Below, piece by piece: positions 34,729 to 37,178 of a DNA stretch of 47,730 bases. A program made the translations under genes and the position numbers. Source of the DNA: Hyphomicrobiales bacterium (GTDB taxonomy: Bacteria; Pseudomonadota; Alphaproteobacteria; Rhizobiales; Methyloligellaceae). Where the stretch lies: the NCBI GenBank assembly GCA_028280515.1, contig JANQLP010000083.1, positions 1 to 47,730 of the forward strand, written 5' to 3'. A model generated the notes under the pieces. It searched no databases. It was not told the origin of the DNA and was given only the letters and a program-made list of their open reading frames with translations. Positions within the stretch are counted from its first letter, which is position 1. Each line of letters begins with the position of its first letter.

Positions 34729-35046
34729 ATGGAAAGCAAAACACGGAAGATGACCAGTCTGGCCATCGCCAGCGCATTTGCAGCTTCGGTCGCCGCTGTT
34801 GGTGCAACCCCGGCGGTTGCCGCAGACGACATGGTGAAGTGTTACGGCATCGCCAAGAAGGGTGAGAATGACTGCAAGGCCGGGCCGGGCACGTCGTGTT
34901 CGGGATCGTCCACGGTCGACTATCAGGGTAATGCCTGGAAGCTCGTCAAAAAGGGCACCTGCACACAAGTCTCCACACCGTTTGGCCCGGGCAGCCTGAC
35001 CTGCCTCGCGACGCGGCCGACCGGCCAAAACTATCAGTGCGGATAG
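34729..35046 (+). CDS. bufA1: BufA1-type bufferin precursor (DUF2282)
   Basis: A 105-residue precursor of the DUF2282 family. The signal peptide ends near AVAA|DD (residue 32). The mature part has six cysteines (38, 49, 57, 78, 92, 104). The first four sit in the family pattern ([27 protein letters not shown]) whose cysteines are oxidised by the partner BufB in characterised members. Two more cysteines lie in a C-terminal stretch ([17 protein letters not shown]) where other members I recall have none. AGGAGGA lies 8 bases before the ATG. The product is expected to be a modified periplasmic copper-binding peptide. It starts a four-gene operon with bufB, bufC and bufD. Family call is firm; chemistry is inferred. 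Confidence 0.9.
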
Positions 35047-35057
35047 GCTGACATCCG

Positions 35058-35939
35058 GTGAGCCGGATCGAAAATACAGATGGTTCCAACCCGATCCCGG
35101 CCCGTGCCGGGGTCGGGCTGAAACCGGAGCACTACGCGGAGATTCTCGATACCCGGCCGGCCATCGGCTGGTTCGAGGTGCACGCGGAAAACTACATGGG
35201 CGCGGGTGGCGCGCCGCACCATTTTCTGACCGCGATTCGCGAGCACTACCCTCTTTCCGTTCATGGTGTCGGCCTGTCGATCGGTGCCGATGCGCCTCTC
35301 GATACGGACCATCTCAATTCCCTGAAACAGGTTTGCGACCGTTACGAGCCGGGCCTCGTGTCCGAACATCTGGCATGGTCGACCCATGACGGTGTCTATC
35401 TGAACGATCTTCTGCCCGTGCCGTACAATGCCGAGACGCTGGGGCGTGTGTGCGAGCATATCGACCAGGTCCAGGAGGTGCTTCGGCGGCGCATGCTTCT
35501 TGAGAATCCGTCTACGTACATCAGGTTCGACGGCAGCGAGATGAGCGAACTCGACTTCCTGGCGGCGATTGTCGGGCGCACCGGTTGCGGCCTTCTGCTG
35601 GACGTGAACAATGTCCAAGTGTCGGCGACGAACCACGCCTATGACGCGGTGGCCTATATCGACGCGTTTCCGCACCAGCATGTTGGCGAGATCCATCTCG
35701 GCGGCCACGCGGACGACGAGGGAGACGACGGCGAACCCCTGCTGATCGACGATCACGGCAGCGCGGTGGCCGATATCGTGTGGAACCTGTACGCCCACAC
35801 GATTTCGCGCTGCGGGCCGGTTCCGACGCTCATCGAGTGGGACAACGACGTTCCGGCCTGGGCGGTCCTGATGGACGAGGCAGCGCGCGCCGACATAGTC
35901 CTTTCTGAAACGTCCGTGCAGCATGTCGCGGCTGAGTGA
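35058..35939 (+). CDS. bufB: BufB, multinuclear nonheme iron oxidative enzyme (DUF692/MNIO)
   Basis: A 293-residue TIM-barrel enzyme of the DUF692/MNIO family, which oxidatively modifies cysteines in ribosomal peptides; relatives include MbnB and TglH. Conserved metal-site motifs can be seen: His69 in SVHGVG, Glu103/His104 in SEHLAW, Glu149/Asn150 in LLENPS, Asp182/Asn184-185 in LLDVNN, His213 and His217 in EIHLGGH, Asp232/His233 in DDHG and Glu260 in IEWD. The start is a GTG at 35058, 11 bp after bufA1, with a weak ribosome binding site suggesting translational coupling. Its end overlaps bufC by 17 bases. No radical-SAM or transporter gene is nearby. It should act on BufA1 in the cytoplasm before export. 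Confidence 0.93.
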
Positions 35940-36693
35940 CACCCAGACCGGATTCGCGCACGCGGTGTTCAATGCCGACGCCGCGGTGCCCGAGGGTATC
36001 GTCAGCCACCTGCGCCGACAGCCTCGCAAGAGATTCGGGGTCTACCGAAACAATGTCTATGTCAGCCTGATCAGTGTGCTCGAAGGGCGCTTTCCGGTGG
36101 TTTCGCGCCTGCTGGGCGAGGACTTTTTCAAGGCCACGGCGCGTGTGTTCGTCGAACACCATCCGCCAACGTCACCGGTCCTGATGCGTTACGGCGGTGG
36201 ATTTTCCGAATTTCTCGAGACCTTCGAGCCGGTGGCCGACCTGCCATGGCTTGCCGACGTGGCCCGGCTCGAATGGGCCTGGAACCTGGCGTATCACGCG
36301 GCCGACAAGGACCCGGTCGCACCCGAAGCTCTTGCAGCCATTGAACCCGCGAGTGCCGGTTCACTCGTCTTCGAGCTGCATCCCGCCGTTCAGCTTGTCC
36401 GTTCCGCCTTTCCGGTGGTGTCGATCTGGAGTGAACACAGCAAGGACGGTGAACCGGAACATATCGATGCTGGCGCGGGCGGCGAAGATGGGCTTATTGT
36501 CAGGCCCGGCATTGCCGTTGAGGTGCGCCACCTGCCGCGGGGCGGCGCGGCGTTCATTTCGGCACTTGCCGGCGGCAAGACGCTTGGGGAAGCAGCGGAA
36601 GTGGCGCTTGACGAAGAAGCATCGTTCGATCTGCAGGCAAATCTGGCAGGTCTGATCGCCAGCGGCGCGATTGCCGGGCTGAGACCGGCCTGA
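35923..36693 (+). CDS. bufC: BufC, DUF2063 family partner of BufB
   Basis: A 256-residue protein with an N-terminal HvfC/BufC domain (DUF2063, about 6-95, with [23 protein letters not shown] and [15 protein letters not shown] features) and a C-terminal domain with an acidic stretch ([19 protein letters not shown]). The family is sometimes called a putative DNA-binding domain, but in bufferin operons it partners with BufB, probably delivering the precursor. It has no signal peptide or membrane helix. Its ATG at 35923 lies inside the bufB 3' end with a 17-base overlap and no own ribosome binding site, so translation is coupled. The match is clear from sequence and from gene order. Confidence 0.9.
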
Positions 36694-36719
36694 ACAGGCG
36701 ACAATGAGGGGGCACCAAA

Positions 36720-37178
36720 ATGAGCAATCAATCCGGACTTGGCGGACTGATCATATCCGTCATCGACCTTTTCAAGAGGACACCGCACGACCTGATCGCG
36801 CTTCTTTCGCGGTTCGTCGTCGGCATGGTGTTCTGGCAGTCGGGCCTGACGAAGATCGACGGTTTCTCCATCAAGGCGTCGACCTTTTTCCTGTTCGCCA
36901 ATGATTTCAAGCTGCCGTTTCTTCCGCCCGACGTGGCCGCGTACATGGCGACGGCCGCGGAGCTCGCATGCCCGATCCTGCTCTGGCTCGGGTTTGGCAC
37001 CCGGTTTGCGGCGCTCGCGCTTCTGATCATGACCCTGGTGATTCAGATCTTCGTGTTTCCGGGATCCTACGTCACGCACGGATTGTGGGCGATCGGTCTG
37101 CTCTATCTGATAAAATATGGCCCAGGCGTCCTGTCGGTCGATCATTTCATTGCCAGGTCCCGCGGCGTGTCGGACTGA
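36720..37178 (+). CDS. bufD: BufD, DoxX family membrane protein
   Basis: A 152-residue DoxX-type integral membrane protein with about four hydrophobic helices (roughly 27-42, 72-90, 94-116 and 119-135). Motifs include RFVVGMVFWQSGLTKIDGF and AAELACPILLWLGFGTRFAAL. It is the usual last gene of bufferin (bufABCD) operons; its role is not settled and could be in membrane handling of the peptide or its redox partner. GAGGGGG precedes the ATG at 36720, 26 bp after bufC. An S9-family peptidase gene follows 33 bp later and may be read from the same promoter. Confidence 0.88.
   Translation: MSNQSGLGGLIISVIDLFKRTPHDLIALLSRFVVGMVFWQSGLTKIDGFSIKASTFFLFANDFKLPFLPPDVAAYMATAAELACPILLWLGFGTRFAALALLIMTLVIQIFVFPGSYVTHGLWAIGLLYLIKYGPGVLSVDHFIARSRGVSD

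Follow-up and report, generated by a model that had tools for sequence, protein, structure and literature searches.

A Buf1 bufferin operon with a rare six-cysteine precursor suggests that the family gains and loses cysteines in pairs

Introduction

The founding Buf1 (DUF2282) bufferin is reportedly the Caulobacter vibrioides member presented by Leprevost et al. in 2024. Buf1 precursors harbour four conserved cysteines, of which only the two central ones are modified in the described members; the outer two, first and last, are joined by a disulfide (PMC12452194, main text). Bufferin genes rarely occur without MNIO genes, and such cases are attributed in the same text either to an activity that is independent of modification or to a loss of expression or function (PMC12452194).

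The window analysed here is a stretch of 47,730 nucleotides from a Hyphomicrobiales bacterium. A preliminary description placed a bufferin operon, bufA-bufB-bufC-bufD, at 34729-37178 and regarded its six-cysteine precursor as unusual. That interpretation holds in part: the operon and the unusual precursor stand, and oxidation of precursor cysteines by the enzymes has to be narrowed to the central two, as in described Buf1 (PMC12452194).

The operon and its chromosomal slot

The coordinates, lengths and spacings of the four genes were reproduced, and all four products score above the Pfam cut-offs of the families proposed for them.

34729..35046, + strand: bufA, Buf1/DUF2282 precursor, 105 residues, six cysteines (PF10048, E 1.5e-23)
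35058..35939, + strand: bufB, MNIO enzyme, 293 residues, GTG start (PF05114, MbnB_TglH_ChrH, 2e-110)
35923..36693, + strand: bufC, DUF2063 partner, 256 residues (PF09836, 4.2e-25)
36720..37178, + strand: bufD, DoxX-family membrane protein, 152 residues (PF07681, 6.5e-19)

The first two genes are separated by 11 bp, bufB and bufC overlap by 17 bp (a gap of -17 bp), and 26 bp lie between bufC and bufD. BufB reaches 401.8 bits against the NCBIfam model NF050167 (MNIO_BufB, cut-off 310) and has a relative in the PDB, 3bww (7.9e-42). Its GTG start is common to two operons of the same genus (G001 and G003). Of its polar residues, 24 are shared by 97% or more of 132 BufB proteins, including H25, E40, H42, H69, H85, H104, E149, D182, H213, H233, E260 and D262; the putative iron ligands and the putative catalytic acid would be among these conserved positions. 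BufC scores 59.5 bits against NF050145 (HvfC), under the cut-off of 142 bits, and BufD 57.7 bits against NF050144 (HvfX), under the cut-off of 80 bits. No solved structure was related to BufC by sequence up to E 0.1. The order bufA-bufB-bufC with an MNIO enzyme and a DUF2063 partner is that of Buf1, as is the PF10048 domain with its four core cysteines (C38, C49, C57 and C78). Buf1 as described has these four only and none in the tail, whereas the window precursor also has C92 and C104. The operon is an ordinary Buf1 bufferin operon with a rare precursor variant.

Upstream, on the other strand, lie gltB and a gltD-like gene (names assigned in this analysis from Pfam domains), and an S9 peptidase, an Hsp20 and an alpha/beta hydrolase follow downstream (Pfam). 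Two of these neighbours mark the slot.

29543..34228, - strand: gltB, divergent neighbour (GATase_2, Glu_synthase, Glu_syn_central and GXGXG domains)
37212..39152, + strand: S9 peptidase, downstream marker (PF00326, 1.5e-42)

This gltB-side slot of the bufferin operon recurs in relatives. gltB lies divergently upstream of 36 of the 168 four-cysteine precursors with sufficient upstream sequence, five of nine six-cysteine precursors and six of eight two-cysteine precursors, and the S9 peptidase is found downstream of the slot in several relatives. Every four- or six-cysteine copy beside gltB is accompanied by a BufB.

Two elements upstream of bufA, kept in three members of the genus, are candidates for regulatory sites.

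34615..34628, no strand assigned: inverted repeat TCACACAAACGTGA, possible operator; TCAC-N6-GTGA kept in G001 and G003
34639..34665, + strand: GAAACTGATC...CGTTT block, candidate promoter, kept in G001 and G003

The block may resemble an alphaproteobacterial ECF promoter. The TCAC-N6-GTGA repeat is not evident by eye in six more distant aligned operons, and a search for NrsF-type regulation gave no NrsF match in the window's own genome at E 0.01. That genome (5.4 Mb, 253 contigs) has one DUF2282 match and three MNIO matches. The two other MNIO genes each follow a BufA2-type precursor whose score exceeds the NCBIfam cut-off, and the genome therefore holds one Buf1 and two Buf2 operons. The latter (L282:3456-3731 and L283:3771-4031, both on the minus strand, contigs C29 and C38) consist of a BufA2 gene by NCBIfam followed by an MNIO gene and, by eye, a DUF2063-like frame.

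The six-cysteine precursor and its distribution

The cysteines of BufA stand at residues 38, 49, 57, 78, 92 and 104, behind a putative signal peptide.

34729..34821, + strand: putative signal peptide, residues 1-31, AVA before residue 32; Sec-type by inspection of the translation
34840..34842, + strand: codon of C38 (C1), invariant in 48 aligned sequences; scaffold disulfide partner by homology (PMC12452194)
34873..34875, + strand: codon of C49 (C2), presumed thiooxazole site (role after PMC12452194); absent from the two-cysteine form
34897..34899, + strand: codon of C57 (C3), presumed thiooxazole site (role after PMC12452194); absent from the two-cysteine form
34960..34962, + strand: codon of C78 (C4), invariant in 48 aligned sequences; partner of C38 by homology (PMC12452194)
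35002..35004, + strand: codon of C92 (C5), extra cysteine, in nine of 243 intact distinct relatives and always with C6
35038..35040, + strand: codon of C104 (C6), extra cysteine, in nine of 243 intact distinct relatives and always with C5

Cysteines were counted in the DUF2282 proteins of the fetched loci, anchored on the first cysteine. Among 243 intact distinct proteins, 226 have four, nine have six and eight have two, and odd numbers do not occur; this sample is weighted towards kin of the window, since many loci were retrieved with its precursor or with a six-cysteine profile, and five of the eight two-cysteine members were added deliberately. An earlier set of 229 distinct sequences comprised 215 with four, nine with a true six and three with two cysteines, together with two that were dropped from the totals, L028 (truncated at a contig end, three cysteines) and L029 (apparently broken frame, counted there as six). 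In L029 (genome G018) the bufA frame seems to be broken inside the core, through either a sequencing error or decay. The tail behind the last core cysteine has no cysteine in 218 of 227 proteins, two in nine and one in none. Cysteine-free tails reach 53 residues, so length alone does not bring cysteines.

The six-cysteine set is small, and several of its nine members are closely related: the window, G001, G003, G012 and G010 belong to one family, G025 and G071 to the same order, and L032 and L039 are loci from MAGs. Elsewhere in the window's genus, a contig end truncates G002, and a DUF2282 match is lacking in G004-G007. Sixty regions picked by hand from lower-ranked matches, some of them from genomes already represented, yielded no further six-cysteine form. 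Searched with the six-cysteine profile, at least five genomes of the order (397 sampled, 196 with any match) gave a match that reaches the tail end without meeting a stop. For the class (385 genomes, 130 with a match) the window's own genome alone did so among the matches listed, and for the phylum (398 genomes, 100 with a match) two genomes did; the own genome is counted in all three samples. Two MAGs can be related to the window's family: the precursor frame of L031 (Hyphomicrobiales) is the same as that of G011, a member of the family, and L082 (Methyloceanibacter) groups on the BufB tree with members of another of its genera.

From residue 91 to residue 105, C92 and C104 are the only invariant positions in an alignment of eight members (A1); inspection by eye finds both in the ninth, L115. 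The extra cysteines thus form the conserved subgroup that the preliminary description had considered, and they are far from common in DUF2282 proteins. They are real and rare, and they define a small subgroup. An MNIO gene lies no more than 1.5 kb away, on the same strand, from each of the nine precursors (902 bp in G025), and because of this adjacency the association cannot be put down to chance. The order A-B-C-D is found in eight of the nine operons, and the ninth (L176) ends after bufB. In G025 (L175), a small His/Tyr/Gly-rich open frame with a start that resembles a signal peptide was seen by eye in the 902 bp between bufA and bufB. A second bufferin gene at this place was considered and discarded, as no second DUF2282 frame is visible by eye.

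In the window's genus, bufA shows dN of 0.066-0.068 against dS of 1.1-1.8 over the whole gene (three pairs) and is under purifying selection, with relatively more amino-acid changes in the tail than in the core. AlphaFold gave the mature peptide of the window a mean pLDDT of 86 (90 for the block 61-70 and 82 for 71-75) in a set of five models whose means run from 86 down to 54; for L032 the mean is 81, with 86 and 76 for the same blocks. The tail is thus predicted about as well as the rest of the mature peptide. No solved structure resembled BufA by sequence up to E 1, and the fold search returned nothing convincing (best E 5.2).

A proposed role for the tail pair

BufA would be made with a Sec signal peptide. 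By homology, BufB and BufC would turn C49 and C57 into thiooxazoles in the cytoplasm, the modified peptide would be exported, C38 and C78 would then pair as the scaffold disulfide, and the product would chelate excess periplasmic copper. C92 and C104 are presumably dispensable for enzyme recognition, and they probably form a second disulfide that would close the C-terminal tail into a loop and stabilise the small scaffold, with the usual thiooxazoles at C49 and C57. Of the three possibilities raised earlier, namely further modification, an extra metal site or a disulfide, comparative evidence leans to the last. Tails hold no cysteine or two and never one, despite cysteine-free tails of up to 53 residues, which supports a C92-C104 bond. 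The same reading is supported by the spacing between C5 and C6, which varies (9 to 14 residues between them, as read from alignments) with both cysteines retained, and by a tail that in the window's genus changes faster than the core. The confidence of the predicted tail, near that of the rest of the peptide, was also counted in its favour. Gain and loss as a pair would also be compatible with a metal site made of two thiolates or with two sites of modification.

Whether the enzyme follows the tail pair bears on the choice. On a tree of 52 BufB proteins, eight of the nine six-cysteine operons fall in one clade of ten (support 95/97), which also holds two four-cysteine operons, G011 and G402. 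By eye, no remnant of a longer tail lies behind the stop codon of these two relatives. A single clade for all nine was rejected (p-AU 0.0175, to be read with caution given the long branch of L115). One BufB residue, V92, appears to be weakly specific to the subgroup, occurring in eight of nine six-cysteine operons against 7% elsewhere among 132 proteins. The nested four-cysteine operons and this single weak residue give no visible need for a change of enzyme lineage, and for a pair that comes and goes without such a change a disulfide is a better match than an added substrate site. The comparison of BufC, with only four of 71 rows from six-cysteine operons, is uninformative on specificity.

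The nested four-cysteine operons and the single weak BufB residue also count against an unlikely alternative in which C92 and C104 are further substrates of BufB and BufC, so that this Buf1 would carry four thiooxazoles and take up more copper. MNIO pairs can modify many cysteines, six in MmrA (PMC12538549), and the residues around DUF2282 target cysteines are described as little conserved, so that sequence context is no argument against modification (PMC13097082). The tail cysteines also occur only beside an adjacent MNIO gene, in all nine cases; however, this co-occurrence is weak evidence because 203 of the 222 four-cysteine precursors with enough downstream sequence have one too.

Thiol pairs in the periplasm are usually oxidised, and it is quite improbable that C92 and C104 remain thiols and provide an extra Cu(I) site. 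Their paired occurrence would suit such a site, but the C5-C6 spacing is not constant, and the tail offers no further invariant residue that could act as a ligand. Copper binding itself is a property of the bufferin family (PMC12452194). Least probable is a neutral decoration of the lineage without effect: the pair is rare and patchy, and the closely related operons G011 and G402 lack it, yet both cysteines are invariant in all nine members while most of the surrounding tail varies, and neither is ever found singly. The tail disulfide stays the preferred reading. A tail pair that is present or absent as a unit provides natural variants with which to probe the tolerance of the enzyme pair and whether stability or copper load depends on the tail.

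A two-cysteine form without neighbouring enzymes

In eight DUF2282 proteins both central cysteines are missing, and the only two left are those at the start and end of the core (L213:4790-5137 in G035, L313, L314, L315, L316, L214, L172 and L317). Their genomes span four families; five belong to one genus (G035, G176, G082, G118 and G149), and the others are G032, G003 and G069. Three of them turned up first, in the survey, and a profile was built from these. In a sample of the order (397 genomes, of which 195 gave any match), seven members score 129-138 bits and the one in G069 scores 99 bits; the remaining matches, among those listed, reach at most 90 bits. Six of the eight genes adjoin the divergent gltB in the slot of the window operon, four of these with the S9 peptidase downstream.

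Homologues of BufB, BufC and BufD were found in none of the eight fetched loci (4.7 to 11.5 kb; L214 extends 833 bp downstream). Of the 19 four-cysteine proteins outside the 203 with an adjacent MNIO gene, 15 carry it at another place within the fetched locus, and the remaining four, in short loci, show none. Fisher's test on adjacency in the two- and four-cysteine forms gives p 1e-7, a value that is overstated because five of the eight two-cysteine members come from one genus. Genome-wide, no MNIO match was obtained in G082 and G118 (drafts 97 and 99% complete, G118 in about 1250 contigs), and in the other six genomes MNIO genes lie on contigs other than that of the two-cysteine gene. In the one genus with five slot copies, these are under strong purifying selection, with dN of 0.00-0.12 against dS of 0.4-1.8 in the mature part (nine of ten pairs computable).

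The absence of the central cysteines in a form without a neighbouring BufB supports the central pair as the targets of the enzyme. Judged from these comparisons, the two-cysteine form looks like a natural, functional, unmodified bufferin. Loss of the enzymes and the central cysteines appears the likelier direction, since enzyme-bearing forms dominate the same gltB slot in the sample. The data bear on the question raised in PMC12452194 whether bufferin genes without enzymes are dead or active without modification: joint absence of the central pair and the neighbouring enzymes under strong purifying selection favours, and points to, an activity independent of modification.

The comparison suggests that the bufferin family gains and loses cysteines in pairs, down to a two-cysteine form without neighbouring modifying enzymes. 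In a fuller model, given an even chance here, bufferins of one slot would exist in three states that differ by whole pairs: two cysteines, with the scaffold disulfide and the enzymes gone; four, with the modified copper pair added; and six, with the tail pair added. The two-cysteine state would be a functional unmodified bufferin whose activity does not depend on thiooxazoles, and the six-cysteine state an elaborated one with possibly further modified sites. This series, with the two-cysteine form, is a more interesting result than the tail pair itself. Term searches of the main texts of PMC12452194 and PMC13097082 gave no mention of a six- or two-cysteine Buf1, and within this scope the novelty of both is provisional.

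Comparison with known systems

The gig (gold-induced) operons are described as bufferin operons (PMC12452194), a designation shared by the window operon. The EGKCG oxazolins or captophorins (fontiphorin, gonophorin) resemble it in combining an MNIO enzyme with a PME1 partner and, as predicted for the window product, carry a cysteine-derived 5-thiooxazole and bind copper (PMC13097082). Their precursors are of the repeat type, in contrast to the window's, and are classed apart from the DUF2282 group (PMC13097082).

Like the window operon, Buf2 operons (NF050166, BufA2, with six or twelve cysteines) have a small precursor gene followed by genes for an MNIO enzyme and a DUF2063-like partner. Membership of the window precursor in Buf2 was rejected, as it scores 32.2 bits against NF050166, under the cut-off of 60 bits. 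Its six cysteines are four of the core and two of the tail, unlike the CKG-type pattern of the two BufA2 precursors in the same genome. At nine other loci, most of them from Sphingomonadales (L038, L044, L045, L048, L049, L051, L053, L062 and L067), a Buf2-like CKG-type precursor was observed on the opposite strand near a Buf1 gene; at all nine the Buf1 gene has no BufB right behind it, and BufB lies elsewhere in the locus.

Unlike Buf1 bufferins as described, the window precursor adds the tail pair C92/C104, and its genome is without an NrsF match. Like them, the window operon combines a DUF2282 precursor with four core cysteines, an MNIO enzyme, a DUF2063 partner and a DoxX protein in the bufABC order.
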